Source: Candidatus Eisenbacteria bacterium (GTDB lineage: Bacteria > Eisenbacteria > RBG-16-71-46 > JASEGR01). Taken from it: a DNA stretch of 60,138 bases. Under the pieces are notes generated by a model. The model did not search any database. It had not been told where the DNA came from and saw nothing but the letters and a program-made list of their open reading frames with translations. Made by a program: the position numbers and the translations under genes. The DNA lies in contig JASEGR010000006.1 in assembly GCA_030017955.1 (NCBI GenBank), positions 1 through 60,138 of the forward strand, read 5' to 3'. Positions 36,230 through 53,431 of this stretch are shown piece by piece (the first letter of the stretch is position 1; the number at the start of each line of letters is the position of its first letter).

Positions 36230-36967
36230 CTAGCGGTTCACTTTTCTCTTAATAATCAGCTCTTTTATGTTGCCCTGACTGTCCTTGTATTCGATCCTGA
36301 TTTCCTCTTCAGTCACTGCGCCCTCTTCTGCCCCGAACCCGGGTGTCTCTCCCTGGACAACCGGCCTCAATCCGGGGGCCTCATTCCCTGTCGAAGTCGC
36401 TATCATTCCCGGTTTAACAGTGACGGATCCATAATCGTTTGAGAATTCCATTTCGCCTTCTATGCAAATTAGGCTCGAGAACCCGTTCTCCGCCACCTCC
36501 TCATAGAACTCTGATCCCTTGACGGATGCGACTGAAGTCGGGGTCTCAACCTCAAACCGCGTGCCTTCCGTCTTCGTCACTTTGGCCCACAAATCTCCAG
36601 CTCCCACCCACAGTCTTTTAGAAACAGCCTTTCCCTGTCTTTCTCCGTTCACAACGAGCTCGGTATTTGAGCTTATCTTCACCAGACTCTTATCGTCCTG
36701 AAACAGGACTGCAGCGAAACCATCTTCGCCTGTTCTGAGGAGATCTCCTCCATCAAGAATCTCACCCTTCTTGGGAACAAACCATTCTCCCGGGTTTGCC
36801 CGTTTCAGCTTCACATTCCCGGTCGCTTTCATGACGAGCGCAATGGCTTTGGGCTCACCAGCCGACGACTCATGAGGAGAGAGCTGGATACAGATAATGA
36901 GGAGAGATACCAGGGGAAGAACTCCAATCCTCAAGAAGCCCATCGACAGACCCGGCTTATTTGTCAT
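36230..36967 (-). CDS. FecR-domain periplasmic protein
   Basis: 245 residues. A signal peptide or anchor (about 10-33) precedes a FecR domain: ALVMKATGNVKLKRANPGEW, then GGDLLRTGEDGFAAVLFQDD and LVKISSNTELVVNG, and finally RFEVETPTSVASVKGSEFYE, the segment most conserved in the family. FecR proteins outside iron regulation usually have no known partner. The C-terminal 60 residues are acidic, ending in a Lys-rich strand. It overlaps the upstream secreted-protein gene in ATGA and precedes the outer-membrane-like protein by 47 bases, forming an operon with the CHASE2 cyclase. A second FecR-cyclase pair lies at 50.5-53.4 kb. Confidence 0.88.
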   Translation of the reverse strand: MTNKPGLSMGFLRIGVLPLVSLLIICIQLSPHESSAGEPKAIALVMKATGNVKLKRANPGEWFVPKKGEILDGGDLLRTGEDGFAAVLFQDDKSLVKISSNTELVVNGERQGKAVSKRLWVGAGDLWAKVTKTEGTRFEVETPTSVASVKGSEFYEEVAENGFSSLICIEGEMEFSNDYGSVTVKPGMIATSTGNEAPGLRPVVQGETPGFGAEEGAVTEEEIRIEYKDSQGNIKELIIKRKVNR

Positions 36968-38524: not shown

Positions 38525-38905
38525 ATGGGACAGACCCAGATTCTCATGATCGTTCTTGCAATAATCATAATTGCCGCTGCGGTGGCAGTGGGCTTGAGGC
38601 AATTCGGAAAAGCCGGGGAGCAGGCTGACCTTGATGCAGCAAGACAGGATTGCCAGAGAGTCGCTGCCTCGGCGCTTGCCTGGTATCAGAAACCTGCTGA
38701 ACTCGGAGGCGGCGGGAGGTCCTGGACTGGCGTAACGTTCGACAAAATTGGTGATGACGGCAAGACTACCGGCGGCATAGCAATGACCGTTGCTGATTCG
38801 TCCGGTTGGCTTAAGATTACTGCACCCACGGCAAAGAAGAACATTTTTGGCATATTGCATCCCGATTCTGCAAGGGGACTTATCACTAGAGCAGAGAACA
38901 GGTAG
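38525..38905 (+). CDS. Small pilin-like protein with a Met-Gly-Gln leader (candidate major pilin)
   Basis: 126 residues. The N terminus MGQTQILMIVLAIIIIAAAV is a two-residue leader followed directly by a hydrophobic helix, then an amphipathic stretch (GEQADLDAARQDCQRVAASA) and a Gly-rich head domain. The layout is that of type IV pilins, but the usual GFTLIE prepilin-peptidase site and its Glu+5 are missing; cleavage after Gly2 is my guess. It is the first gene of an operon with PilC, PilB and others, has a very strong ribosome binding site and is separated from pilC by a GC-rich hairpin, all consistent with the abundant major subunit. From memory, similar MGQ-type small proteins precede pilus genes in FCB-group bacteria. 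Confidence 0.72.
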   Translation: MGQTQILMIVLAIIIIAAAVAVGLRQFGKAGEQADLDAARQDCQRVAASALAWYQKPAELGGGGRSWTGVTFDKIGDDGKTTGGIAMTVADSSGWLKITAPTAKKNIFGILHPDSARGLITRAENR

Positions 38906-38972: not shown

Positions 38973-40325
38973 ATGCCTGAGTTCCGGTACAAAGCCATTT
39001 CACTCGCAGGAAAACCAGTACAAGGAATTATCCTTGCTAAAGGAAAGGGCGAGGCCAGGTCGTCAGTTGCCAAGCTCTGCCAGGAGAGAAAGCTCCGCCT
39101 GGTCGAAGTAAGCAAGAAATCCTCGTTCATCTACAGAATTACGAAAAAGGGGGAACCGACCAAGAAAGGTGAGGAAGAAGCCTTTCACAAGAAAGAAGTT
39201 GAAGTCCTCCTGAAGAGGCAGTTCCCGCCGGAGAGGGGCTTCAAGATATCGGTCCAGAAGAAGCTCCTTGACTTCAGTTTCAAACCCCCCAACAGGGATA
39301 TTGTCCTCTTCGTAAGAATATGTTCAGACCTCCTGCGGGAGAAACTTCCCTACGACGAGATTCTCAACCTCGTCCTGAACGACACTACGAACAAGACACT
39401 GCGCCGCACTATTTCGCAAATCAGCACCGATCTGAAGGACGGCAAGGATGGACAGGAGGTCTTCAAGAAACATGAGCAGACATTGGGAAGATTCCCCGCA
39501 TACATGCTGGGGATTGCCTCCAACAGCGGAAACATGGCTGAGGTATATGACAGTACCGCCAAGTTCCTTGAGAGAGACCAGGAGTTCAGAAAAAATCTGA
39601 GAGGCGCCCTGATCACTCCAATCGTCACCCTCCTTCTCCTTTTCGGAGCAGTCGTTTACTATGTCGGATACATCTTCCCGAAGACCGCCGAGGTTTTTCT
39701 GAAGCTCAAGATAAAGCTTCCGCCGATGACGACCGCCTCGCTTGCCGCAAGTGATTTTCTCAGATCTCACATGCTGCTCGTGTTTGCAGTTCTAATCGTC
39801 CCTCCCGTAGCGACAGTGATACTCACAAAGACAAAAAAAGGAAAGCTGCTCTTTGACAAGTACATAATAAAGCTTCCAGTCCTCGGATCTCTTATTCACA
39901 AAACCAGCATCGAGATATTTGCAAGGGTTTTCAACTCGCTCTACACGGGTTCAGGCGAGAACATTGCGGTCATCCGCACGGCGGCAGAGGCCTGCAGGAA
40001 CAAATACATGGAAGAGAGAATAAAAACGGTTGCGATTCCGCTTATGCTCAAGGAAGGCAAGGGGCTCGTGGAGGCGCTTGAAGCGACCAGAGTATTCACC
40101 GTGAATGCCATCTCCCGCTTCAGGTCGGGCTCGGAATCGGGCGCGCTCAAATCCTCGTCCGAGCAGCTTGCCAACTACTATGAAAAGGAAACTGGCTACA
40201 AGATGAAGAGCACCGTCGAACTGATAAATCTGGTCATTGCGTTTGTAATAATGATCGTAACGCTTGCGCTCACGCTCGTTTCATCAGAGACTGCCTTCAT
40301 AAAGCCCGACTTGGGCTCAATGTAA
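38973..40325 (+). CDS. pilC: Type IV pilus/type II secretion inner-membrane platform protein (PilC/GspF)
   Basis: 450 residues. MPEFRYKAISLAGKPVQGII is the usual N-terminal start, followed by a longer than usual charged linker (about 45-105). Two GspF domains (about 110-230 and 310-440) each end in hydrophobic segments (about 206-226, 254-275 and 415-435). ASNSGNMAEVYDSTAKFLER in the first domain and FRSGSESGALKSSSEQLANY in the second are the diagnostic repeats. It organises the assembly motor and pilin extraction from the inner membrane. The ribosome binding site is weak compared with that of the pilin gene. It precedes pilB by 10 bases. Confidence 0.93.
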   Translation: MPEFRYKAISLAGKPVQGIILAKGKGEARSSVAKLCQERKLRLVEVSKKSSFIYRITKKGEPTKKGEEEAFHKKEVEVLLKRQFPPERGFKISVQKKLLDFSFKPPNRDIVLFVRICSDLLREKLPYDEILNLVLNDTTNKTLRRTISQISTDLKDGKDGQEVFKKHEQTLGRFPAYMLGIASNSGNMAEVYDSTAKFLERDQEFRKNLRGALITPIVTLLLLFGAVVYYVGYIFPKTAEVFLKLKIKLPPMTTASLAASDFLRSHMLLVFAVLIVPPVATVILTKTKKGKLLFDKYIIKLPVLGSLIHKTSIEIFARVFNSLYTGSGENIAVIRTAAEACRNKYMEERIKTVAIPLMLKEGKGLVEALEATRVFTVNAISRFRSGSESGALKSSSEQLANYYEKETGYKMKSTVELINLVIAFVIMIVTLALTLVSSETAFIKPDLGSM

Positions 40326-40335
40326 GGGGCCGGGA

Positions 40336-42093
40336 ATGCCGCAGCCGAAGAGCAGGATAGGTGAGATTCTTTCGAAAAAAGGAATTGTTGACGCCGAGAC
40401 TCTTGAAAGAGCCGAAGGAATTCTTGAGCAGGAAGACGGGAAAAGAAAGCTCACCGATATATTAGTTTCCGACTTCGGAATCGATCACCACGCCGTCTTC
40501 AGCGAAGTCTCACGCTTCTACGCCTTCAAAGAGCTCAACCTTGACGAACAGGCGGTGGATGATCCGCGGCTTGAGTTCATAAAAGGCATTCTCGATAAGC
40601 TCACCCCTGAAATTGTGGAAAAGATAATCACAAGAAAGATGCTGCCGTTCAAAGTCTCCGAGGACCAGAAGGACCTTCTTCTCATAATCACCCCCGATCC
40701 CACAGACAAGGAAGTTTCATCTCTCTCAAGGCATTTCCCTTACAAAAAGCACGAGATTCTCTACACAAGGCTTAACAAATTCGACACCCTGCTGGAAAAA
40801 GTGGTACCGCCGAAGAATGAGTTCCTGGAGATAGTTGAAAAGCAGAGTCAGCCCATTGAAGTGTCCGAAGAGGAAGGAGCAGAAGAGCCGATCGACAAGG
40901 ACACAGTCTCTGCACTCAGGGCGCTCGTTGAAGCTTCTCTGATAGAGGCCGTGAGGAAGGGCGCGAGCGATATTCATGTCGTCCCTCATGATTCGAAGAG
41001 CACTGAGATTCATTTCCGGATTGACGGCAATCTTCAGCTCTGGAGAATCGACCCATACAAACCCGAAGCAGTTTCTGCGGTCATCAAGGATTTCTCCAAA
41101 AATGTTGACAGGTTTGAGAGGGAAATCGCGCAGGACGGGTTCATTCAGAAGAGGGTTGATGACCAGTGGATAAGGTATCGAGTCTCAATTCTTCCGATAG
41201 TCGGAAGCGAATTCAGGAGAAAGTGGGAATCAATTGTAGTAAGGGTGCTGGATGATAGAAATGTTGTGACGGAAATCGAGCGGCTGGGATTTCTTGAGAA
41301 AGCTCTCAGTGATTTCAAGGCAGCAATCTCTGCCCCACAGGGAATAATCATTCTTACGGGGCCTACAGGGTGCGGGAAGAGCACAACGCTCATGGCAGCT
41401 CTTCACCACGTCATGGATCCAACCGTGAATGTTCTGACAGTTGAGGACCCGGTCGAGTTCCTGATAAAGGGTGCAAGACAGCTCAAGATTGGCAACAAGA
41501 TGAATTTCGACCAGGCGATAAGGTCTATCCTGAGACATGACCCTGACATCGTCATGGTGGGCGAGATCAGGGACCTGAAGACTGCTGAAATAGCGATCAA
41601 GCTTGCAAATACCGGCCACCTCACATTCTCCACCCTCCACACGAACGATGCTCCAAGTTCTGTCACAAGGCTCTATACCATGGGCGTCGAGCCGTTTCTC
41701 ATTGCCAATGCAATCAACGTGATAATTGCCCAGCGCCTGGTCAGGACACTCTGCTCAAAGTGCAAGGCGCCTGCAAAAACACCCGATGTGCCAGCCGCCC
41801 GGCGGCTTGGATTGAGCGATGAAGAGATCAAATCCGCGGTTTTCTACGAACCCGTTGGATGCCCGGAGTGCAACAAAGGATGGAAGGGGCGCGCGGCCAT
41901 ACACGAGGGGCTCCTTTTCACAAAAGAGATAAGGAAAATAATCTCTTCATCAAAAGACACAGTGGATGAGACGGCGATCAAAGAGCAGGCAAAGAAGACT
42001 GGTGTTTTGACCTTGAGGGAATCTGGCGCTCAGAAGGCTAAGGAAGGGATCACGACCATCGAGGAAATAATCTCTGCAACCGTCGAGGAGTAA
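40336..42093 (+). CDS. pilB: Assembly ATPase PilB/GspE
   Basis: 585 residues. An N-terminal MshEN/GspE_N-like domain (about 1-160) precedes the hexameric ATPase core. Motifs: GASDIHVVP (209-217), Walker A GPTGCGKS (342-349), Asp box VEDPVE (369-374), Walker B IVMVGEIRD (405-413) and His box STLHTND. The four cysteines of the zinc-binding C-terminal module are present (Cys473, Cys476, Cys509, Cys512), which marks an assembly ATPase rather than a retraction ATPase. It powers pilin polymerisation. It is followed by the pilin-like gene at 42100 after six bases, with GAGGAG at its own 3' end serving as that gene's ribosome binding site. Confidence 0.94.
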   Translation: MPQPKSRIGEILSKKGIVDAETLERAEGILEQEDGKRKLTDILVSDFGIDHHAVFSEVSRFYAFKELNLDEQAVDDPRLEFIKGILDKLTPEIVEKIITRKMLPFKVSEDQKDLLLIITPDPTDKEVSSLSRHFPYKKHEILYTRLNKFDTLLEKVVPPKNEFLEIVEKQSQPIEVSEEEGAEEPIDKDTVSALRALVEASLIEAVRKGASDIHVVPHDSKSTEIHFRIDGNLQLWRIDPYKPEAVSAVIKDFSKNVDRFEREIAQDGFIQKRVDDQWIRYRVSILPIVGSEFRRKWESIVVRVLDDRNVVTEIERLGFLEKALSDFKAAISAPQGIIILTGPTGCGKSTTLMAALHHVMDPTVNVLTVEDPVEFLIKGARQLKIGNKMNFDQAIRSILRHDPDIVMVGEIRDLKTAEIAIKLANTGHLTFSTLHTNDAPSSVTRLYTMGVEPFLIANAINVIIAQRLVRTLCSKCKAPAKTPDVPAARRLGLSDEEIKSAVFYEPVGCPECNKGWKGRAAIHEGLLFTKEIRKIISSSKDTVDETAIKEQAKKTGVLTLRESGAQKAKEGITTIEEIISATVEE

Positions 42094-42099
42094 GATTGA

Positions 42100-42591
42100 A
42101 TGTCAACCGGTGAGATGCTTTTTCTTATCTGCGCGATGGCACTTCTCTCAACGCTTATACTTTCTGTGAATACATCACTTTTTCAGGCTAACGATTTCGC
42201 TTCGGAGGGGACAATCGGCATGTATGCTGTGTCTGTTGCGCAGCAATACGTCGAGATGGCAAGGCAGTTGAAGTACGACGAGACTACTGTATCGGGCTAT
42301 CCTTCTAACCCGCCCGCCGGATTCACGATGGCCGGGAGGCTTGGAAAAGACACTGGTGAATCCTACCCTGATTTTGATGATGTGGATGATTTCAACAACT
42401 TCGCTTTACGGGATTCGACTTCTTTTGGAAAGTGTGCTGTAAGCATTGACGTCGCCTATGTGAATGAAAACGACCCTACGCAGACTGCTCAGGGACAGAC
42501 CTATGCAAAGAGAATGACCGTAACGGTAAGTTCTCCTTTTCTCAGAGCGCCTCTCCGGTTGAGTCATGTGTTCACCTACTTCGAAAAGTGA
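42100..42591 (+). CDS. Minor pilin-like protein
   Basis: 163 residues. MSTGEMLFLICAMALLSTLI is a very short leader, a Gly-Glu pair and a hydrophobic helix, then an alpha-helical spine (GMYAVSVAQQYVEMARQLKY) and a beta-rich head ending in LRLSHVFTYFEK. The spine-plus-head shape and its position between pilB and other pilus genes indicate a minor pilin or pseudopilin. No named family is recognised. Gly4-Glu5 could be processed by a prepilin peptidase. Confidence 0.68.
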   Translation: MSTGEMLFLICAMALLSTLILSVNTSLFQANDFASEGTIGMYAVSVAQQYVEMARQLKYDETTVSGYPSNPPAGFTMAGRLGKDTGESYPDFDDVDDFNNFALRDSTSFGKCAVSIDVAYVNENDPTQTAQGQTYAKRMTVTVSSPFLRAPLRLSHVFTYFEK

Positions 42592-42602
42592 GGTAAACAG
42601 AA

Positions 42603-43052
42603 TTGCCTAGTGAAAAAGAGCTCCTTCTGATGGGTTTTTCAGACCAGGACAGAAGGGAATTTCTCGCCATTGGAAGGGAGAAGGAATTCCATCTGAATGA
42701 AGTGATAATCCGGGAAAACACGCCGGGTCTCGAGATGTACATAATCGAAGACGGAGAAGTATCGCTGTGGCTGGATGATGCCAACCTCGGGACCCTCAAA
42801 GAGGGAGATACCCTCGGTGCTTCCGTAATCGTTCTCCAGCACCCCAGAACAGCAAGGGTTGTGGCGGAAGGCTACGTGAGGGTGAGGGAGTATGAGAGGT
42901 CGCAGGTTATGGCGTACTTCAGGCGAAAACCTCCAGTGCTTTTTCAGCAGTTCTTCGTCAACGTCACGCACGTGCTTGTCGGCCAGCTGCGCAAGGCAAA
43001 TCAGAGAATCTGGCTGCTGAACAATAGACTGAGGGAGCTCGAACTAACCTAG
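42603..43052 (+). CDS. Stand-alone cyclic-nucleotide-binding-domain protein in the pilus operon
   Basis: 149 residues from a TTG at 42603 preceded by GAGGT. It is a single CRP-like cNMP-binding beta roll: EFHLNEVIIRENTPGLEMYI, IIEDGEVSLWLDDANLG, then the phosphate-binding cassette EGDTLGASVIVLQHPRTARV. The Arg (Arg82) and Thr (Thr83) that hold the cyclic phosphate are present, but the Glu that normally contacts the ribose hydroxyl is Ala73. A C-terminal helix of about 45 residues follows without a DNA-binding domain. It may sense the product of the two CHASE2 cyclases that flank the operon and act on the motor proteins directly. Loss of the Glu could mean altered or lost nucleotide binding. 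Confidence 0.78.
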   Translation: MPSEKELLLMGFSDQDRREFLAIGREKEFHLNEVIIRENTPGLEMYIIEDGEVSLWLDDANLGTLKEGDTLGASVIVLQHPRTARVVAEGYVRVREYERSQVMAYFRRKPPVLFQQFFVNVTHVLVGQLRKANQRIWLLNNRLRELELT

Positions 43053-43062: not shown

Positions 43063-43650
43063 ATGGGCATTTTCCTCGACATCGCAGCATCAGCCATAAT
43101 AGGAGCAATACTCCTCGGCACTGTTCTCTCGCTCAACGCATCGCTGATTGAGAATTCACACCGGGCGACAATGGAAGTCGCAGTACAGAGGAATTTGGGA
43201 ACCATCACCGCGCTCATGCTGCGAGACCTGAAAAACATGGGCTACAAGGTAAGTCCGGCAGTTTCTACGGCCAGGTCGGACACTGTATTTTTCAGAGGAG
43301 ATCTGAATGATGATGGCTCAGCTGACTCAGTCGGTTATTTCCTGGGGCCAGTGGATGAACTTGCCGGAACTGAGAATCCCGGCGACAGGACTCTGATAAG
43401 GAATTTTAATGGCGCGAGGCAATTGCTTGCTACCGGCGTTACATCTTTGGATTTCTCCTATTTCGGAGCCGCACAGGAGAAGATTGAAAGGCAGGAGGGT
43501 GAGACAGCGGAACAGAGAAGAGCAAGGCAGGCTTCAATCGTTACAGTTCAGGTTTCCGTTATAGTCGAAAGCCCCTACAAGTACGGGAGAGACTACACAA
43601 AGGCAATCGGAAAATTCAGGGTCTCTCCCAAGAATCTGACCCTGGGGTGA
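43063..43650 (+). CDS. Minor pilin/pseudopilin-like protein (PilW/GspJ-like shape)
   Basis: 195 residues. MGIFLDIAASAIIGAILLGT begins with Met-Gly and a hydrophobic helix, then an amphipathic helix (RATMEVAVQRNLGTITALML) and a beta-rich head (residues 70-190) with VGYFLGPVDELAGTENPGDR and a strand on ASIVTVQVSVIVES. The layout is that of GspJ/PilW minor subunits. There is no canonical GFTLIE site. It follows the cNMP-binding gene by 10 bases. Confidence 0.68.
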   Translation: MGIFLDIAASAIIGAILLGTVLSLNASLIENSHRATMEVAVQRNLGTITALMLRDLKNMGYKVSPAVSTARSDTVFFRGDLNDDGSADSVGYFLGPVDELAGTENPGDRTLIRNFNGARQLLATGVTSLDFSYFGAAQEKIERQEGETAEQRRARQASIVTVQVSVIVESPYKYGRDYTKAIGKFRVSPKNLTLG

Positions 43651-43653
43651 CCT

Positions 43654-44691
43654 TTGGGAAGAGCCTCCCTTCTTGTCGTCATGGGCTTTCTTGTGGTTTT
43701 CGGCACTTTGAAATCCAGCATCAATAAGACAGTCCAGAGCCTTACTCGAAATCTTGTTTCTTCGTTCGAGGATTATTCTGCCAGGGATGCCGCAGGGTCG
43801 TCCGTGTTGATTGCCCTGAGGAAGATCTCGAAGGACAACGACCTGAGGGGCACGATTACCCTTCCTCCCTTCTCAGGGGCATCGGCGACCGTGACTGTTG
43901 TGGATTCAACAACTGATTCGACTCTTGCGAGGAACGAAGTAAGACTTCTTGCAACCGCATCGGTTGGCTCCACTTCAAGAAAGGTGAAGGTGCTTGCAAA
44001 GAGAGAGAGCCTAGTACCTCAAGACACCGAGGCTGCGATTGGCCTCAAGGGAGCTGTCACAAGCGTTGATTTCCTGGGAGCGGCGTTTTTGATCGACGGC
44101 CACGACTGGCTCCCCGGGGGACCGCTCGCCTCCCCCGCGGACAGTGTCCCCGGCGTATCGGCAAGTTCCGCAGCAGATTCCACCGCCCTTGTCGCCGGAC
44201 TCGGTCCAAGCTGGAATCAAGTCCAGGGAGCCGGCCCTGAACCCAGCATCTCAACACTTAAGGGCACCTATGATTTCAACAGAATGTTTCAGGGATTCCG
44301 CTCAGTGGCGACACGCATACTCTCTGTCAGGACAACTATCGGTGGAGGACAGGTCTGGGGGACAAGAGCTCAGCCCGAGGTCACGATTATCTCGGGAATT
44401 GTGAAGGTCGCCGGTGCCACTTCCGGCGTTGGCGTGCTTGCAGTGGATGGATCGCTGACCGTAACCGGGAACTTCTACTGGGAAGGATTCATTCTCGTAA
44501 AGTCTGCAGGAAGCATAGAGCTCCAGGGGAATTCCACGATATACGGAGGCCTGCTCTGTGAGTCAGGGCCGGCTGGATTCGGATTCAGGTCCCAAGGGAG
44601 CATGAGTCTCTATTACAGTTCCTCGTCGCTTGAGACTGCCCGTTCAAAACTTGACATAAACTACTTTAAGCCTTACGCATGGTACGAGTAG
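43654..44691 (+). CDS. Large minor pilin-like protein
   Basis: 345 residues from a TTG at 43654 just after the previous stop. MGRASLLVVMGFLVVFGTLK is again a Met-Gly leader plus a hydrophobic helix, followed by the spine (SSFEDYSARDAAGSSVLIAL) and a Ser/Thr/Gly-rich exported domain. The last third (ISGIVKVAGATSGVGVLAVD, then GNFYWEGFILVKSAGSIELQ and YGGLLCES) has the repeating strands of a beta helix or PilX/PilY-associated polymer-tip domain. The size suggests a tip subunit or adhesin. No named family is recognised. Confidence 0.68.
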   Translation: MGRASLLVVMGFLVVFGTLKSSINKTVQSLTRNLVSSFEDYSARDAAGSSVLIALRKISKDNDLRGTITLPPFSGASATVTVVDSTTDSTLARNEVRLLATASVGSTSRKVKVLAKRESLVPQDTEAAIGLKGAVTSVDFLGAAFLIDGHDWLPGGPLASPADSVPGVSASSAADSTALVAGLGPSWNQVQGAGPEPSISTLKGTYDFNRMFQGFRSVATRILSVRTTIGGGQVWGTRAQPEVTIISGIVKVAGATSGVGVLAVDGSLTVTGNFYWEGFILVKSAGSIELQGNSTIYGGLLCESGPAGFGFRSQGSMSLYYSSSSLETARSKLDINYFKPYAWYE

Positions 44692-44724: not shown

Positions 44725-44763
44725 TCTAGGCATGTCCTCTCTTTGGCAGGGATGGTTTTCCTA

Positions 44764-45987
44764 ATGGGAGGAACTGTGGAGGCAAAAGAAATCCTTTCCA
44801 AGCTGGCCGCTAAACTCCCCAAAGGGGTCGGCGGAGTTGACAAGCAGAACCTCGTGGCGAAAATCCTGGGGGAAACACCGGCTTCTGATGTGGCAGCCCT
44901 TAGAGAAACCCTCAACTCCCTCCTCTTCAAGATGGAGGCAAACAAAGCTTCCGACATAGACCTCGGAGGGCACGGGTGCAAAGGGTCTGTTTGGTACAGG
45001 ATATTCGGTGAGAAGAAACCGGATACCTCGCTGGGCACCTTGACCCCGGATGAATCGGATTTTCTTCTTCAATCCATCCTCACGGAAAGCCAGAGAGAAC
45101 ACCTCTGCAGGGAGAGGAATCTGGATTTCTCTTTTGTGGCCGCCGATGCCAAGACGAGTTTCAGGTTCAGGGGAGACATGTACTTTGACCTGGATTCTCT
45201 TGCCCTTAACATGAGAATCATTGCAAATGCAATAAGACCTTTCACTGACCTTGAGCTTCACCCCAACATAGCGCGTGCTCTTGCGATCAAGTTCGACAAG
45301 CATGGATTGATTCTTGTTACCGGTCTTACCGGTGCCGGCAAGAGTACGACACTTGACAGCATTATCGACCTGAACAACCAGACTTCTACCGGACATATTG
45401 TAATAATAGGGTCCCCTATCGAGACAGTTCATCAGCCGAGCAATTGTATCGTCAGGCATCGGGAGGTTGGAAAGGATGTTCTCTCCTTCAAGGAGGGAGC
45501 AATACAGGCGCTGAGGCAAGATCCGAACATCGTGGTAGTCGGTGAGATGAGAGATCCCGAAACCATTCTTACTGTTCTTGAGATAACCGACAGCGGCCAC
45601 AAGGTCTTTTCAACCCTGCACACGGCCTCTGCGGTTGAGAGCATAGACAGAATAATAGGAGAATGCGCGGTAGAGGAACAGAACAGGGTGAGAGAAAGAC
45701 TTGCCGATACGCTGAAATGCGTGTTATCGCAGAAACTGGTTCCTACCGTGGACGGAAAAAGAGTTCTTGCAAAAGAGGTGATGTTAATGACATCCTCCAT
45801 TCGGGCTGCCATAAAGAACAACAACAGCGGCGAGATCTTTCAGATGATATTTGAATCGGCAGACCAGGGGATGACGACACTGGAGCAGGATCTGAAGCGC
45901 CTGTTCGCAAAAGGAAGAATATCCCGGGAAGAAGCCATGAACTATGCAAACAACAAGAAGAGGCTGGACGAGATCCTCAAGGAATAG
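44764..45987 (+). CDS. PilT/PilU-like ATPase with an altered Asp box
   Basis: About 407 residues from the ATG at 44764; an upstream TTG (44743), an ATG (44752) and a GTG (44776) are possible. The N-terminal 75 residues are unlike PilT. Numbered from the TTG, Walker A is GLTGAGKS (194-201), Walker B IVVVGEMRDPET (263-274) and the His box STLHT (290-294). The Asp box, normally EDPIE, reads GSPIE (223-227): both leading acids are gone while the last Glu, thought to be the general base in PilT, remains. The PilT C-terminal AIRNLIRE element is only loosely kept as SSIRAAIKN. It lacks the zinc module of PilB. It may be a retraction-type motor or a non-canonical motor partner. Confidence 0.88.
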   Translation: MGGTVEAKEILSKLAAKLPKGVGGVDKQNLVAKILGETPASDVAALRETLNSLLFKMEANKASDIDLGGHGCKGSVWYRIFGEKKPDTSLGTLTPDESDFLLQSILTESQREHLCRERNLDFSFVAADAKTSFRFRGDMYFDLDSLALNMRIIANAIRPFTDLELHPNIARALAIKFDKHGLILVTGLTGAGKSTTLDSIIDLNNQTSTGHIVIIGSPIETVHQPSNCIVRHREVGKDVLSFKEGAIQALRQDPNIVVVGEMRDPETILTVLEITDSGHKVFSTLHTASAVESIDRIIGECAVEEQNRVRERLADTLKCVLSQKLVPTVDGKRVLAKEVMLMTSSIRAAIKNNNSGEIFQMIFESADQGMTTLEQDLKRLFAKGRISREEAMNYANNKKRLDEILKE

Positions 45988-46065: not shown

Positions 46066-47607
46066 ATGAAGCGCGGTGTAGGTATCGCAGTAGATGGAAC
46101 GGAAATAAGATCGGCGCATCTCGTGAAAGTGAACAAGGTCTTCAAGGTCCTCTCGCTTTCAAAGGGAAACTTGCTGACAAAGCTCGATGTGGCCGAAGAC
46201 GTTACAAAGGATAAGGAAGAAGTTTCCCTCAAAGAAATCTTTGGCGGCACGGAGCTTGGAGAAACCAAGCCGAAGGTGGAAGCTGAGGATAACTCGTCAG
46301 TCCTTCTGCGGATGCTTGGTGAAGCTACCTCGAAAGGCTCCCTTCTTGCGCTGAATCTCAGCGAATCGAACGTGCTCTTCTATGAGATTGACCCCTCCCG
46401 GTTTGGCAAGAATGCGGCAAAGCTGTCCAAGAAGAGCGTGATGAAGAAGCTCAGAGCCGAACTTGAGCGGAAAGGAGAAAGTCAGGCCAAGCTGAGTGAG
46501 CTTGATTGCTTCAGGACTGACAGAGGCAGCATTATCGGTCTTGCATACGACCCTCCCGGGGAGCTCCTTGCCCTGATATCGACCGTAAAGAGCTTCGTTA
46601 GCGCAAAGTTCAGGGTTTCAACCGTGGATTCGAACATGATTGCCCTAATGAACCTTGTCCGGGCCGATACCCCGGATAGAGACCAGGTCCAGGCCGTCGT
46701 TTACATCGGAAAGGAGTTCTCACGGGTCCTCTTCTTGAAAGGCGGCGACTACCTCCGCTCTTCCAGGGTAATCAATGAGGGAGCCGATTCTCCACAGATA
46801 CTTGAAACGGTTCACAGCAGGATAATATTCGAACAGGATGAGGCCGGCATCACCGAGGTCAACCGCGTCGTTCTCGCGGGAGACGTAGTACGACTCGGAG
46901 GGAAGGACTTCCTGGCTCCAAGATTTCCAAATGCGTCAGTCGAATATCTCGTTCCGCCCCAGTTGGATCTGAGCTCTCTCAGCGAAGAAGAAAAGGGAAC
47001 GGTTTGTGAGTACGCAATCCCCCTCGGCCTCGCATGGAAAGCTCTCGAACCCGGACATCCCGGGTTCTACCTAACGAACCTTCTTCCCGCCCAGGTCATC
47101 GAGATGGAGAAACTCATCAAGATTACCTGGTATCACATTGCCATTATTGCACTCTTTGTCCTGGCAGCGTTCTTCCTGGCAGGCAAGGACATTCAGATTT
47201 CATCCGCCATGAATTCAAGAAGGGCAAACATCAGTTATCTTGATCGCCAGATCGCAAAAGCAAAGCCTCTTCTTGTCGAGGTAGACCAGAATGAGGCGAG
47301 GCTCGTTTCTCTGGGAAAGGCACTTGGGCAGCTCAACGCACTGGAGAAGAGCACGCCCAGATGGACCACGATGTTCTCACGCATGGCGCGAGGCACGAGC
47401 GACCTCGGAGGTCTTTGGCTCACCGAGTTCGGGACGACTGAGAAAGGGATTCTCCTGGTGGGACGGTCGGTGTACAGAAATAGAGTCTCATCATTCTCCA
47501 AATACCTTGACAAGCCGAAACTCGGCGAGGTGAGGAGGGCAACTATAAGACAGAAGGAAATCTACTCATTTACATATGAAGCCGAGGGCTCAGGAGGAAA
47601 GAAGTAG
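46066..47607 (+). CDS. PilM-PilN fusion protein
   Basis: 513 residues. The first 325 have the actin-like ATPase shape of PilM/GspL: VGIAVDGTEIRSAHLVKVNK at the N terminus, VQAVVYIGKEFSRVLFLKGG in the middle and EVNRVVLAGDVVRLGG further on. Residues 336-341 read LTNLLP, matching the INLLP motif at the start of PilN that docks into PilM, and are followed by a transmembrane helix (about 355-373) and a periplasmic coiled-coil plus ferredoxin-like region as in PilN. In known pili PilM and PilN are separate proteins. The fusion would fix the inner-membrane alignment complex in a 1:1 ratio. Its TAG overlaps the next start by one base. Confidence 0.85.
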   Translation: MKRGVGIAVDGTEIRSAHLVKVNKVFKVLSLSKGNLLTKLDVAEDVTKDKEEVSLKEIFGGTELGETKPKVEAEDNSSVLLRMLGEATSKGSLLALNLSESNVLFYEIDPSRFGKNAAKLSKKSVMKKLRAELERKGESQAKLSELDCFRTDRGSIIGLAYDPPGELLALISTVKSFVSAKFRVSTVDSNMIALMNLVRADTPDRDQVQAVVYIGKEFSRVLFLKGGDYLRSSRVINEGADSPQILETVHSRIIFEQDEAGITEVNRVVLAGDVVRLGGKDFLAPRFPNASVEYLVPPQLDLSSLSEEEKGTVCEYAIPLGLAWKALEPGHPGFYLTNLLPAQVIEMEKLIKITWYHIAIIALFVLAAFFLAGKDIQISSAMNSRRANISYLDRQIAKAKPLLVEVDQNEARLVSLGKALGQLNALEKSTPRWTTMFSRMARGTSDLGGLWLTEFGTTEKGILLVGRSVYRNRVSSFSKYLDKPKLGEVRRATIRQKEIYSFTYEAEGSGGKK

Positions 47608-48497
47608 TGTCGAACGTACTGAGAACCACCCTGATAATGCTTGTTCTCTTCTGTGTCATCTTGAGTTTTGGGACTTACCGGGTCTTCAAGAAAAAAGCCG
47701 GTGAGGAGAGGGCTTTAAGGAAACTGGAGAACGGGAAGAAGACAGAGCTTGCGGCTGTCCGTTCGAGGATCGACTCCATACCGTTCTTGAAGACAAAGGT
47801 GAAGGAAAAGGAAGAAGAGCTTTCACGGCGTTCAAGGATACTGCCTTCGCAGAACGACCCCTCTACGACCTACGCATACTTCAATACGCTTTTTGGCAAG
47901 AGAGGCGCTTTCCTGAGTGCAGATTTCTCTTTCCAGGGAAAGACGGATGCTGAAGGCTACTCTTACAACACTTACAGATTGGGCGGAGACGGAGACTTCC
48001 TCCGGTTCTATTATTTCATCTGGTATCTTGAAAACATGCCGCTTCTTTACGGAATAGAGTCCATCAGGATCGATGCGATCCCTCCTTCCCAGGAAGACCC
48101 CAGACTGGGCAAGGTGAGATTCGAGGTCATCATCAGAGCTTACTACGCTCCCCACAGCGAGCTTCCCAAACCGAAAGTCTCTCCATTCCTGAGACCGGCA
48201 AGCATTAGTTTGAACCCCTTCTCACCCCTTGTCTATGAACTGCTTCCTCCAAACGACGAGGGGCTTCTTGATGTTGACACGGCGAGCCTTCTCGGAACCG
48301 GAAAGGGAGTCGCATTTCTCAAGGACGCAAGCGGAGACCTCTTTTCCCTCAGGGAAGGGGATAGAGTTTACCTTGGATTCGTATCCAAGATCGATTCTGA
48401 CAAAGGCGAAGTCGGATTCCTTCTCAACAAGGGAGGCGTAACGGAGAAGAAGTCCCTCAGGGTGGAGATGTTGACATCCGGAAGCCAAAAACGATAG
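47607..48497 (+). CDS. PilO-PilP fusion protein
   Basis: 296 residues from a GTG at 47607 behind GGAGG, sharing a base with the previous TAG. One transmembrane helix (about 6-24), a coiled coil (about 30-75) and a ferredoxin-like periplasmic domain (about 85-183) give the PilO layout. A Pro/Ser linker then leads to a C-terminal domain (about 200-292) with LNPFSPLVYE and GDLFSLREGDRVYLGFVSKI followed by repeated short strands, the pattern of the PilP beta-sandwich that contacts the secretin. PilP is normally a separate lipoprotein. Here it is tied to PilO, so no separate lipoprotein is needed. The PilP assignment rests on short motifs and is less sure than PilO. Confidence 0.75.
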   Translation: MSNVLRTTLIMLVLFCVILSFGTYRVFKKKAGEERALRKLENGKKTELAAVRSRIDSIPFLKTKVKEKEEELSRRSRILPSQNDPSTTYAYFNTLFGKRGAFLSADFSFQGKTDAEGYSYNTYRLGGDGDFLRFYYFIWYLENMPLLYGIESIRIDAIPPSQEDPRLGKVRFEVIIRAYYAPHSELPKPKVSPFLRPASISLNPFSPLVYELLPPNDEGLLDVDTASLLGTGKGVAFLKDASGDLFSLREGDRVYLGFVSKIDSDKGEVGFLLNKGGVTEKKSLRVEMLTSGSQKR

Positions 48498-48547
48498 TCA
48501 AGATCCTGGCTCTGCTCAAGTGAGTGCTTAGTCAACAGCTCCGGGGG

Positions 48548-48562
48548 TTCTCCAAAGGAGAA
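48548..48562 (+). promoter_or_regulatory. Hairpin covering the secretin ribosome binding site
   Basis: TTCTCC (48548-48553) pairs with GGAGAA (48557-48562) around AAA; the right arm contains the AAGGAG ribosome binding site of the secretin gene, whose ATG is at 48566. Translation may be lowered unless the upstream gene is being translated. Confidence 0.45.
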
Positions 48563-48565
48563 AAC

Positions 48566-49732
48566 ATGAACCGCAAGTCTATTCTCTTTGTGATTCTTCT
48601 CACTGCGGCTGCTGGCATAACGCAATGCTGGGCCCAGAAAGCGACACAGAGCGGCATTTCCCGGGAGGCCGAAATAGTTGCCCTGAGCGGGAAAGCCACC
48701 TTCAGGGAGGCAATGAGAGTAATTGAGTCTGTGAGCGGCATGAGAATCATCGCGCCTGAAGACTATAAAGATGCAGATAAGGAAATCGGGTTCGATGTGC
48801 CCGGTGTCCAGTGGAAGGTTGCTCTCAATATCATTGCCAAGGACAGAGGCCTTGAGATTGTTTCGCGGGAAAGGACTATTGAGCTAAGGAAGAGACTCGA
48901 GGAGGGAGGAAGAGAGGCCGCTCCCTCGCCTGAGGTTCTGGTCGATTCCAGAGAAGTCTCTATATCCGCCATCTTCTTTGAAGCAAATAGGTCTGCATTG
49001 AGAGAGCTTGGCATAGATTGGGCCTCTCTCAGGACCGGGGGTGTAAAATTCACCTTCAGCGACACGCTTGCGCTCAAAGACGGGAGAGTCAAGTCCGCAG
49101 GCGTGGCTGGAGGACCCACCGGCACAGTTGATGTCCTCACACTTCTCAGGTTCTTTGAATCGAGAGGCCAGGGTGAAGTTATTGCCAATCCTCAGATAAG
49201 AGTTCTCAGCGGGAAAGAAGGAAATGTGAAGGTTGGAACAGACTTCTTTGTCACAACAAGGGACTTTGCCGGGAATACAATTCAGCAGCTTCAGAGCACT
49301 GGAACAATCTTGACTGTGACTCCGCATGTCCTGACGCAGGACGGCGTTGACTTCATCTACCTCCTGATCAGTGCCGAAAGAAGTTCATACGAGGCCGGCA
49401 CCAGCACTATCGGAAAAACGACTGCTTCTACGTATGCTCTCCTCTTCAACGGTGAAGAGACTGCAATAGGAGGTCTCTACGGCACTTCCCAGGCAGTAAA
49501 AAGAGAAGGATTTCCGTTCCTCAAGGACCTCCCATGGTGGTTCTTTGGGTTGAAATACGTCTTTGGCTATGACAGCAAGCAGGTAACGAAAAATGAGCTT
49601 GTAATACTTGTCAAAGCAAACATCGTTCCAACACTCAAATCGCGCCTCGAGGAGAAAGAAAAAGACAAGTCCATGATGGAGAAGATTGAGCAGAGAAGAC
49701 AGGAGTTCGAACAGAGGACCAGGAGGAAATAG
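48566..49732 (+). CDS. Short secretin (PilQ/GspD-like outer-membrane channel)
   Basis: 388 residues from the ATG at 48566 with AAGGAG six bases upstream. A signal peptide (MNRKSILFVILLTAAAGITQ, ending near CWAQ) precedes one short N domain (about 40-95; SGKATFREAMRVIESVSGM is the secretin/TonB short N-terminal pattern) and then the secretin domain (about 130-365): QGEVIANPQIRVLSGKEGNV, STGTILTVTPHV, and the C-terminal signature KREGFPFLKDLPWWFFGL. Most PilQ/GspD proteins have several more N domains and are 600-700 residues, so this is unusually small. It should form the outer-membrane exit of the pilus or secretion machine. Its stop overlaps the next gene's start. Confidence 0.87.
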   Translation: MNRKSILFVILLTAAAGITQCWAQKATQSGISREAEIVALSGKATFREAMRVIESVSGMRIIAPEDYKDADKEIGFDVPGVQWKVALNIIAKDRGLEIVSRERTIELRKRLEEGGREAAPSPEVLVDSREVSISAIFFEANRSALRELGIDWASLRTGGVKFTFSDTLALKDGRVKSAGVAGGPTGTVDVLTLLRFFESRGQGEVIANPQIRVLSGKEGNVKVGTDFFVTTRDFAGNTIQQLQSTGTILTVTPHVLTQDGVDFIYLLISAERSSYEAGTSTIGKTTASTYALLFNGEETAIGGLYGTSQAVKREGFPFLKDLPWWFFGLKYVFGYDSKQVTKNELVILVKANIVPTLKSRLEEKEKDKSMMEKIEQRRQEFEQRTRRK

Positions 49733-50541
49733 TGTTTCGGAAGTTCGAGGTGACAATATCCCCTCCTGAAGTGGAAGAGAATCTGCCGTTTCTTGTCGAA
49801 AACGGCCTTGGCGTCGAACTCATGCTCTATGACATCGATTACACCAGAAATGCCAAGGCTGCCTCGCTTCAGAGAATCGGCAATCTCCTCAGAAAGAACG
49901 GCATAACTCCCACTGCGCACGGTCCGTTCTATGATCTGAATCCGGGGAGCAGGGATTCCTCGGTAAGAAGCTACACACTGCGCTGCTTCTCCGAGACTCT
50001 TGAAGCGTGCTCACATCTCGGAGTGAGCCTTGTTGTTTTCCACACGGGATTGAACCCTCTTCTTCCGATCACCTATCAGAAAATCTGGCTTGACATCTCC
50101 ATGGACTCGTGGAAACCGGTCGTGAGGGAAGCTGAGGAGAAGAAGATCGTCATTGCCATTGAGAACACATTTGCGCGGGATTCGTCGACAATTGAGGCAA
50201 TTGTCAGGGAAGTGTCCTCGGAGTGGCTCAAGGTGTGCTTTGATGCTGCCCATGTTCATGTCTATTCCAGGAAGCCGATCGAGGAATGGCTGGACAACCT
50301 GGACGGGCTGGTCAGAAAGATCCACTTGAATGACAACGCGGGAGAGCACGATGACCATCTCTCACTTGGCGAGGGGAATATGGATATCGTTAACGTCTTT
50401 CGCCAGCTCGAGAAGAGAAAGCTCTTTCCAATTGTTACCTTGGAACTCGACGTGAGCAGGTTCGAGAAAAGCCTTGATTTTCTGGAAGAACACAAGCTGT
50501 GGAAGCGAAAAAAACGTGAGCTAATTCCCCGCACCAAGTAG
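49732..50541 (+). CDS. Sugar phosphate isomerase/AP-endonuclease-like TIM-barrel protein
   Basis: 269 residues from a GTG that shares one base with the secretin stop, behind AGGAGG. It has the xylose-isomerase-like TIM-barrel fold (AP_endonuc_2): FEVTISPPEVEENLPFLVEN, TPTAHGPFYDLNPGSRD, LVVFHTGLNPLL, IVIAIENTFARDSSTIEAIV, VCFDAAHVHVYSR and IHLNDNAGEHDDHLSLGEGN carry the metal-binding His, Glu, Asp and His residues of the family. The substrate could be a sugar phosphate or damaged DNA; nothing decides. Coupling to the secretin suggests it may help glycosylate pilus or surface components. Its 3' end overlaps the convergent cyclase gene by 21 bases. Confidence 0.82.
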   Translation: MFRKFEVTISPPEVEENLPFLVENGLGVELMLYDIDYTRNAKAASLQRIGNLLRKNGITPTAHGPFYDLNPGSRDSSVRSYTLRCFSETLEACSHLGVSLVVFHTGLNPLLPITYQKIWLDISMDSWKPVVREAEEKKIVIAIENTFARDSSTIEAIVREVSSEWLKVCFDAAHVHVYSRKPIEEWLDNLDGLVRKIHLNDNAGEHDDHLSLGEGNMDIVNVFRQLEKRKLFPIVTLELDVSRFEKSLDFLEEHKLWKRKKRELIPRTK

Positions 50542-52599
50542 TTCACAGCAGGACACAGGTTCTTTCCTGCCTTTCAGACTTACGGTGCCAAGCTCTCTGA
50601 CCATGAATTTTCCCTTTGCCCTTCTCAGAGTCTCCGTACTTACTATTATGTGCGTCCCGTAATCCTTGTTCAAACTTTCCAGTCTTGATGCAACGTTCAC
50701 ACCGTCACCCATCACCGTGTACTCCATCCTCTCAACTGAACCTACGTTCCCGGCGAAGACAATACCCGTGTTTATTCCGACCCCGATGTCCAGCGGAGGC
50801 TTGCCCTCCTCCTTCCACCTTGCGGACATTTCCCTTACCTTTGTCATCATAGCGATGGCAGTTCTGAGAGCCCTGTCGGGGTGATCGTCACACGCAACCG
50901 GAGCCCCGAAGATTGCCATTATCGCATCCCCCACAAATTTGTTGACTGTGCCCCCGTGAGAGAAAATGATTTCGGTCATAGCTGTAAGGTACTCATTTAT
51001 TAGCGGCACTAATTCTTCAGCCGAAAGCGTTTCAGATATCGTCGTAAAACCACGCACGTCGGAAAATAGTATGCTCACATCTCTTTTCTCGCCGGGAATG
51101 GTGGCCTGTCTGTTCTTGAGTATCTCGCCAAGCACATCAGGGGATACGTATTTTCCGAAAGTATTGCTTATCCTCTGCCTCTCTCTTCTCTCCTTCTCAA
51201 ATCTGTACCCAACTGTTCCCACAAACGTCCCGAACAGCGAAAACGTCGGGGCGGTCAGGTCCGTGATCAAACCCGACCTGGCAAACAAGAAACAGGACAA
51301 CGCGAAATATCCGGCTCCGAAAACAACAAAAATCAGGAGCGTCGTGATTGCCTTCCTCTCGGACACGAGATATGCGAGACCGAAAGACAGGACAAGGATG
51401 ACAAGCACCATGAAACGCATGGGCACAAGCGTGAGGAAGCTTCTTTCAAGAATGGTATGCAATGCATTTGCCTGAAATCCGACCATCGGATAGAGAGTCT
51501 CAAATGGAATAGTGGCTCTATCCTGCGAATCAAGTGTCGCGTCCCCGATAAGGACGACTCTGCCCTGAAGTTCGGCAAGTTTCTCCTTTGCTATCCTAGG
51601 TTGAAGATCATTGAGGATAAGATTTCGGGATTCGCAAATATCGAAATACGAGAATTTCTTTATCCCGTACCGGCCATCCCATTTTCCAGTCCAGTTGACA
51701 ATCATCTGGCCTTCTCTATCAACTGGAATCCTGAGAGGTTTTTCCAGCCTCAGTCCCCCGGGTATCACCACCCACCTGCCGGATTCAAAAGTGACCTCCG
51801 ACAAATCGGCATCAAAATAGTCGCAGGCTATCGACAGGGCAATCGAAGGAAACAATCTCCCCTGAAAAGAAACCAGAACGGGATACTTTCTTGCAGTGCC
51901 GTCCGAGTTGAGTCCCCTCCTGCCGATGTCCGGGTCAAGCTGCTCAAAACCAACTCCTGCTGCCGCTGAAAGAAGAGTCTCGTTAGGAGGAAATATGTTC
52001 TTTGCGGGGAGCGCCCTTGTGTTTGAAAACGGGATTGAGAACTTCAGGGTCTGGGGCGAAAGAGAATTCGCATCCTTCCCTGGAACTTCCGCCTCATCGC
52101 CCCTTCCAAGTTCAAAGTACTGTCCCAGATGCACATGACCGTTCCTTAAGATAGATTCTCTGAACGCGGCATCATCATCCTTGCTGGACGAGAAAAAAAC
52201 ATCAAATCCCTCCGCTCTCGTTCCAAAGTCAGTAAGAGCATCAATCAAAAGAGCATGATAGATTCTTCGCCACGGCCACTTCTCTCCAAAGCCTTCTTCG
52301 CTCTTCTCATCGATTGTCACTATCGAGACAATGGAACTCCCCTTCGATTCACCTCTGATCCTGAACCTCAGGTCAACAGACTTGAGCTCCGCCGGATAGA
52401 AAACGCCTGCAACAAGGAGGATGAGAGTAAGAGATGCGGAAATAAGAGAGATTATGAGCGGGACGAGCAGGCCGCCACGCGGGCGGAAAGAACTCAGCAA
52501 TCCACGGAATCCACGAGGCGATCGCGGTTTTCCGGGTTTGTATGCTTCCCGGTCAGCGTTGGAAGAAGAGTTCATCCGGGCAAGCAGGTTAACGCGCAT
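50521..52599 (-). CDS. Adenylate/guanylate cyclase with CHASE2 sensor domain (second copy)
   Basis: About 692 residues from the ATG at 52599, inside the end of the FecR gene; a TTG at 52608 or an ATG at 52575 are alternatives. After a basic N terminus and a transmembrane helix (about 45-65) comes a CHASE2 domain (about 75-400; SIVSIVTIDEKSEEGFGEKW and LQGRVVLIGDATLDSQDR), three further helices, and a class III cyclase domain: ILFSDVRGFTTISETL, NKFVGDAIMAIFGAP and MEYTVMGDGVNVASRLESLN. Metal-binding Asp, Lys, Asn and Arg are present; the position of Asp567 in the first cyclase is Glu here (MEYT), so substrate choice is less clear, though still likely ATP. It forms an operon with a FecR protein and a GAF-SpoIIE phosphatase. 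Confidence 0.92.
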   Translation of the reverse strand: MRVNLLARMNSSSNADREAYKPGKPRSPRGFRGLLSSFRPRGGLLVPLIISLISASLTLILLVAGVFYPAELKSVDLRFRIRGESKGSSIVSIVTIDEKSEEGFGEKWPWRRIYHALLIDALTDFGTRAEGFDVFFSSSKDDDAAFRESILRNGHVHLGQYFELGRGDEAEVPGKDANSLSPQTLKFSIPFSNTRALPAKNIFPPNETLLSAAAGVGFEQLDPDIGRRGLNSDGTARKYPVLVSFQGRLFPSIALSIACDYFDADLSEVTFESGRWVVIPGGLRLEKPLRIPVDREGQMIVNWTGKWDGRYGIKKFSYFDICESRNLILNDLQPRIAKEKLAELQGRVVLIGDATLDSQDRATIPFETLYPMVGFQANALHTILERSFLTLVPMRFMVLVILVLSFGLAYLVSERKAITTLLIFVVFGAGYFALSCFLFARSGLITDLTAPTFSLFGTFVGTVGYRFEKERRERQRISNTFGKYVSPDVLGEILKNRQATIPGEKRDVSILFSDVRGFTTISETLSAEELVPLINEYLTAMTEIIFSHGGTVNKFVGDAIMAIFGAPVACDDHPDRALRTAIAMMTKVREMSARWKEEGKPPLDIGVGINTGIVFAGNVGSVERMEYTVMGDGVNVASRLESLNKDYGTHIIVSTETLRRAKGKFMVRELGTVSLKGRKEPVSCCELLGAGN

Positions 52600-53365
52600 C
52601 CCTTTCAAGATTCCACTTCACCCAGACGTCCAGGGAGTCAGCCGTCAAATCAAACTTCCGAGGAACGGGTTTTTCGTTGATGTTCCCCCCGTGTAATGTC
52701 ACCTCTTCAAGAGCGCTGAGGATGACCGTGTACTCGTTGAGAGTGACCTCCCGGGGCCCCGGCACCTGTCGCGGTCCTGAGACTTGCCGGGGGGACGTGA
52801 CCTTGTACCCAGTCTCCGCAGTGTCTTCCCCTTCCGGCATGACTCTGGAAGGAACAACTTTCACTGACCCGGTATACACTTTGACGGTAGTCATGCTATC
52901 CGAAAGAAGGTCTATTCTGAAGACTGTCCCTTCGACCCCGGTGAGCGCAATCGGGGTTCTCACCTCGAGCCCTTTGCCCTCCTCCTTCTTGTAGATCTTG
53001 CCCCAGACTTTTGCCTTGTCCTTCCCGGCAAGAGAAGGGAGAATTCTCGTTTTCACCTTTCCTGCTTTCAGACCTTCGATGAGTATGGACGTGTTTTCAT
53101 CAACTCTGAGCACCGTGCTTCCCGGAAAGGTGATCTCAACCCTCGATCCCTTCATGGTCGTTATCTTGTCGCCCTCTTTGACTATCATGTTGGGGAGAAT
53201 CCGGATCGTCTCCTTCTCACCTTTCCTCTCGAGGACGGCAACGGGGAGAACAAGTGTAACCCTGGCTTCCTTCCTTGGACCTGATTCCTGAGAGAAGCAG
53301 AGCGCCAGAGGCCCGGCAACAAGAACCAATACTGTACAGAAAAGAAGCGCCCTTCTGAACTTCAA
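52589..53365 (-). CDS. FecR-domain periplasmic protein (second copy)
   Basis: 258 residues from a TTG at 53365, chosen because AAAGGAGG lies six bases upstream; an ATG at 53407 would add 14 residues but lacks such a site. A signal peptide (LLFCTVLVLVAGPLALCFSQ) is followed by a FecR domain: LPNMIVKEGDKITTMKGSRV, VLRVDENTSILIEGLKAG and LEVRTPIALTGVEGTVFRID. Near residue 190 a short repeat (SPRQV, GPRQV, GPREV) occurs three times. It lies directly before a CHASE2 cyclase gene, repeating the FecR-cyclase arrangement of the left module. Confidence 0.88.
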   Translation of the reverse strand: MKFRRALLFCTVLVLVAGPLALCFSQESGPRKEARVTLVLPVAVLERKGEKETIRILPNMIVKEGDKITTMKGSRVEITFPGSTVLRVDENTSILIEGLKAGKVKTRILPSLAGKDKAKVWGKIYKKEEGKGLEVRTPIALTGVEGTVFRIDLLSDSMTTVKVYTGSVKVVPSRVMPEGEDTAETGYKVTSPRQVSGPRQVPGPREVTLNEYTVILSALEEVTLHGGNINEKPVPRKFDLTADSLDVWVKWNLERDAR

Positions 53366-53431
53366 GATGAACCTCCTTTCACACCCCAGCGTCTCACCCG
53401 ACGGCATGGGAACGCGACTGACGTTTCCGCA

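Follow-up and report, generated by a model that had tools for sequence, protein, structure and literature searches.

A PilM-PilN fusion protein encoded beside a PilO-PilP fusion in a probable, diverged type IV pilus cluster of Candidatus Eisenbacteria

The stretch of Candidatus Eisenbacteria DNA analyzed in this work (60,138 nucleotides of contig JASEGR010000006.1, assembly GCA_030017955.1, hereafter the window) contains a single intact open reading frame of 513 residues (46066-47607, forward strand) in which a PilM-like part, an NLLP motif, a transmembrane helix and a PilN-like part follow one another in the same chain, as proposed in the first-pass annotation. The neighbor gene on the same strand (47607-48497) encodes a 296-residue protein in which PilO and PilP are also joined, a second fusion that had been overlooked in the earlier reading; the four functions of PilMNOP are therefore carried by two chains. 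The same genome retains a split pilM, pilN, pilO, pilP and pilQ operon on another contig (C3). Besides the ordinary pilus machine found elsewhere in the genome, the window very probably encodes another, diverged type IV machine, with an alignment complex made of the PilM-PilN and PilO-PilP chains.

The motif LTNLLP is located at residues 336-341 (47071-47088) and corresponds to the N-terminus of PilN. NLLP itself occupies residues 338-341, ahead of a transmembrane helix predicted by hydropathy at residues 349-379 (47110-47202; best 19-residue window, 358-376), which is followed by the PilN-like periplasmic part (residues 380-513, 47203-47604). This last part was matched by the Pfam PilN model at residues 449-506 (E=0.012, below the curated cut-off), and the PilN structure 3jc8 of the PDB was matched at residues 337-481 (E=0.0085). 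When the fusion was used as query against 47 genomes of the phylum (E up to 5), 12 matches in 12 genomes were obtained besides itself, although an E value of 0.001 was reached in just 2 of the 46 other genomes. Ten of these 12 matches were PilN genes of ordinary operons (E from 4e-4 to 0.12), and in seven of the ten the alignment started at fusion residue 328-337. With a PilN profile of the phylum, the alignment began at NLLP and ended at residue 485 (Z=4000, E=8e-4), and none of 500 shuffled sequences equaled its score. Judged from these alignments, the PilN half is collinear with the PilN proteins of its relatives from their first residues on. The possibility that NLLP is coincidental was discounted on the grounds that the alignments with PilN begin there. 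An assembly or frame artefact was also discarded, neither a stop nor an in-frame restart being present at the junction of the assembled sequence. No in-frame ATG, GTG or TTG was found between residues 300 and 347, so that NLLP is produced solely within the fused chain.

The PilM-like part comprises residues 1-323 (46066-47034), and its last recognizable residues are the GLA at 321-323, which fits the boundary at about residue 325 given previously. The Pfam model PilM_2 did not match the window reading frame, although it matches in all 47 genomes, and the NCBIfam model of the PilM-like protein Amuc_1101 matched residues 176-227 far below its cut-off (E=0.002). A profile built jointly from 49 split and fused PilMs of the phylum recognized the fusion with E=8e-7, the next non-PilM protein among 537 reading frames having E=0.089; leaving aside the PilM loci from which this profile was made and their members, the window fusion was the sole protein that passed. 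With profiles from split PilMs alone, 2 of 500 shuffled sequences scored as high as the PilM half. The clearest part of the match covers residues 179-260, and a second, weak piece follows at 264-287; between both pieces, before the AGD motif, inspection by eye shows about 50 residues fewer than in an ordinary PilM. Comparison of single-sequence profiles of the fusion with those of its fused and split relatives gave weak results (best E=2.7e-4, in one pair), AlphaFold run without homologues gave an unusable model (pLDDT of 31), and a phmmer search of the fusion against 692 reading frames of related loci gave no matches. No close relative was found when a collection of genome contigs was scanned with the fusion, and a second scan with the pair of fusions from two other genomes of the phylum, G002 and G004, recovered one locus, apparently that of G002 itself. 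The PilM half would thus be of the PilM type but very diverged, with an actin-like fold that is predicted from this assignment.

The PilO-PilP gene overlaps the end of the PilM-PilN gene by 1 nt. Its product gave nothing meaningful with Pfam (one unrelated match with E=0.33 in one search and none in another). When it was used as query against the 47 genomes (E up to 1), 22 matches besides itself were obtained, one of them below E=0.001. Fourteen of these fell in ordinary operons, four in PilO and ten in PilP genes, and the other eight were assigned to neither; the PilO alignments are contained in residues 9-199 of the query, and those with PilP in residues 199-287. In agreement with this partition, the PilO profile of the phylum matched residues 6-179 (E=0.0065) and the PilP profile residues 232-266 (E=0.0073), both at Z=4000 and both with none of 500 shuffled sequences as high. 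The PilO-like part, with its transmembrane segment, corresponds to residues 6-179 (47622-48143), and the PilP-like part begins at the NPF at residue 203 (48213-48476). At the equivalent place G002 and G004 have genes of 334 and 350 residues that by eye are the same PilO-PilP fusion; with the profiles, the PilO match of the G002 protein had E=0.31 with no shuffle as high out of 500, and the other matches were indistinguishable from shuffles. The double fusion layout, as read by eye, appears to be common to these two relatives.

The genes for PilB, PilC, PilM, PilN, PilO, PilP and a secretin are encoded together, as in the type IVa pilus machine, PilO and PilP being assigned by weak matches. All are on the forward strand, separated by no more than 78 nt, in the order PilC-type platform protein (38973-40325, Pfam T2SSF E=2.7e-26), PilB-type extension ATPase (40336-42093, Pfam T2SSE E=1.4e-105, with TIGR02538 as the best NCBIfam model, below its cut-off), three pilin-like genes with a cyclic-nucleotide-binding protein among them, PilT-family ATPase (44743-45987, 318.4 bits with TIGR01420, whose cut-off is 319.1), PilM-PilN, PilO-PilP and a short PilQ-like secretin of 402 residues (48524-49732, Pfam Secretin E=1.1e-26, with TIGR02515 as the best NCBIfam model, below its cut-off). 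Of this secretin, just the C-terminal secretin domain is recognized by Pfam. Four proteins encoded on the forward strand were classified by eye: three as pilin-like (38525-38905, 42100-42591 and 43063-43650), with no Pfam match, and one as pilin- or PilX-like (43654-44691), for which Pfam gave a single weak hit to an unrelated family (E=0.043). All four have a very short leader followed by a hydrophobic segment, and the usual Glu at +5, which goes with the class III signal of a type IVa major pilin, is absent; the protein encoded at 38525-38905 starts with MGQTQILMIVLAIII. Pilin starts of the MGQ type occur in bacteria of the FCB group. The cyclic-nucleotide-binding protein inside the operon is encoded at 42603-43052 (Pfam E=6.4e-12), and the cluster is flanked by two CHASE2 cyclases (31439-33562 and 50521-52608) and, near them, by FecR-domain proteins on either side (36230-36967 and 52589-53407). 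Control of the window pilus by cyclic nucleotides is possible.

The PilT-family ATPase has GSPIE where three relatives have EDPIE, and its activity is in doubt for this reason. This unusual Asp box, the extreme divergence of the PilM half and the split operon on contig C3 would all suit a fused gene that is decaying or redundant, redundancy being suspected because that operon still provides a complete pilMNOPQ set of separate genes. We consider this unlikely, as every gene of the cluster is open and tightly spaced, down to the 1-nt overlap between both fusion genes.

GspL of the type II secretion system has the same domain order as the fusion (PMC10191384), and the fused relatives G002 and G004 stand among GspG-like pilins with no PilT nearby, so that the window protein could be a GspL in which LTNLLP occurs by chance. 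This explanation is very unlikely: no GspL model of Pfam or NCBIfam matched the fusion at E up to 5, and no GspL appeared in the PDB searches up to E=10. The Pfam models T2SSL (PF05134) and GspL_C (PF12693), both of which match the E. coli control, were over their cut-off in none of the 47 genomes and had no match in the genome of the window at E up to 1. A GspL identity was consequently rejected on sequence, and NLLP sits where PilN begins. The PilT gene adjoining the fusion also argues for a pilus, since the type II secretion system is described as having arisen by loss of PilT (PMC10191384).

A survey of fused and split homologues, which had been suggested as a check, revealed further PilM-PilN fusions in 11 of the 47 genomes (G000, G002, G004, G017, G039, G040, G041, G042, G043, G044 and G045), some PilM_2 loci being classed as fused or split by frame length only. 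The G040 fusion has a probable PilM frameshift, that of G045 is interrupted by the contig start, and the incomplete case of G046 was left out of the count. One of these 11 cases is a second fusion in the window's own genome, in a 1250-residue frame on contig C23 (locus L034, 4441-8190) with separate PilO and PilP. Its PilM part is preceded by a repetitive, basic stretch of about 690 residues, which may result from where the open frame was taken to start.

Of 32 split loci, 28 had both ends readable, and in 19 of these the end of pilM overlaps the start of pilN by 4 nt. The spacing from GLA to NLLP is 14 residues in the window and would be 12 in locus L002 if both tails (GLALRRQGDKK and MIRVNLLP) were kept, so the junction spacing looks like that of a read-through of an ordinary operon. 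Exact NLLP is present in 28 of 32 PilN loci (26 of 30 without two duplicate pairs), the others being NLVP (in this genome), NVLP, one truncated case and one that was not read. Among the 12 fused proteins, exact NLLP is found in the window alone; the other eleven have LNF (six), INL (one), NRLLP/NLLKP (one), VDF (one) or nothing similar (two). The idea that NLLP eroded solely after fusion was dropped because INLYP or INFRR takes its place in two types of split PilN from the phylum.

A tree built from 50 PilM rows placed the fused forms on one side of a branch with support 83/86, found in 84% of the bootstrap trees, and the PilMs of the window, G002 and G004 group together (86/79). The window PilM has an end branch of 7.55, and its placement is unsure because long branches may attract each other. 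These data bear on the proposal of the first-pass annotation that the fusion is an intermediate between the PilM/PilN pair and GspL. A recent intermediate of this kind would account for the exactly retained NLLP and for a junction spacing similar to adjacent-gene read-through, but it is highly improbable, since the fused PilMs lie together on one side of the branch, GspL is over the cut-off nowhere among the 47 genomes and the PilM half is far diverged, its end branch indicating that it is not recent. The absence of GspL over the cut-off also means that nothing here ties the fused lineage to GspL. With the reservation imposed by the long branches, the fused PilMs would form a fused lineage of long standing and not a newly arisen intermediate, and PilM-PilN fusions were already known, so this part of the earlier proposal is not supported.

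In the preferred reading, a diverged pilus machine with a two-chain alignment complex, the PilM-like part would be located in the cytoplasm, and NLLP, which in ordinary pili is the peptide of PilN that docks on a separate PilM, belongs to the same chain. Docking would then be intramolecular or between ring neighbors, with PilM and PilN fixed at 1:1, and the PilP domain, which makes the contact with the secretin, would be attached directly to PilO. The system would likely operate as an ordinary alignment complex with two additional covalent links. Docking of NLLP into the groove of its own PilM is plausible, continued docking being suggested by the conservation of NLLP; the docking peptide could also be vestigial. 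We infer that the complex is assembled and that the system functions as a pilus. Overall, the evidence leans slightly towards PilMNOP in two chains locked at 1:1, in a PilT-bearing pilus system whose fused lineage is apart from type II secretion. If the two-chain reading is true, the double fusion in G002 and G004 would have arisen either once, long ago, or repeatedly. Natural fusions reveal which components at the base of the pilus remain associated and in what ratio, and 1:1 stoichiometries of PilM:PilN and PilO:PilP would constrain models of the ring beneath the pilus. One split and two fused versions in one genome allow a side-by-side comparison, and the double fusion offers a small structural target of two chains for the alignment complex.

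PilN is known to bind the IA-IC cleft of PilM (PMC7613929), and both proteins have been found joined in other bacteria. In Clostridioides difficile, PilMN is one chain with PilM and PilN as in the window (PMC6916266), but this organism is a monoderm that has neither a secretin nor PilP and for which another PilN motif has been suggested, whereas the window has a secretin and a PilO-PilP fusion. A pilMN fusion is reported in most type IV pili of Campylobacterota, where the order is pilMNOPQ and the consulted sections of the report mention no PilO-PilP fusion (PMC11870540), in contrast to the window. GspL/PulL of type II secretion has also been described as a PilM-PilN fusion (PMC10191384), from which the window differs by the lack of a GspL profile match and the presence of PilT. 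No description of a PilO-PilP fusion or of a two-chain PilMNOP was found in the literature searched, in which subscription papers were thinly covered; the PilM-PilN fusion is thus already known, and the double fusion appears to be a new variant. The loci of G002 (L046) and G004 (L047) differ from the window in the lack of NLLP, in their GspG-like pilins and in the lack of PilT within the stretch examined, but like the window they have a PilM-PilN fusion (22% identical to the window protein in the alignment, in the case of G004), with a fusion of the PilO-PilP type and then a secretin after it. Finally, a PilM-PilN1-12 chimera of P. aeruginosa has been crystallized (PMC5805733), and the molecule name of PDB 5eou gives PilM and PilN in one chain, which indicates that such a tether is workable; although man-made and limited to the peptide, this chimera carries the PilN N-terminus on the PilM chain as the window protein does.
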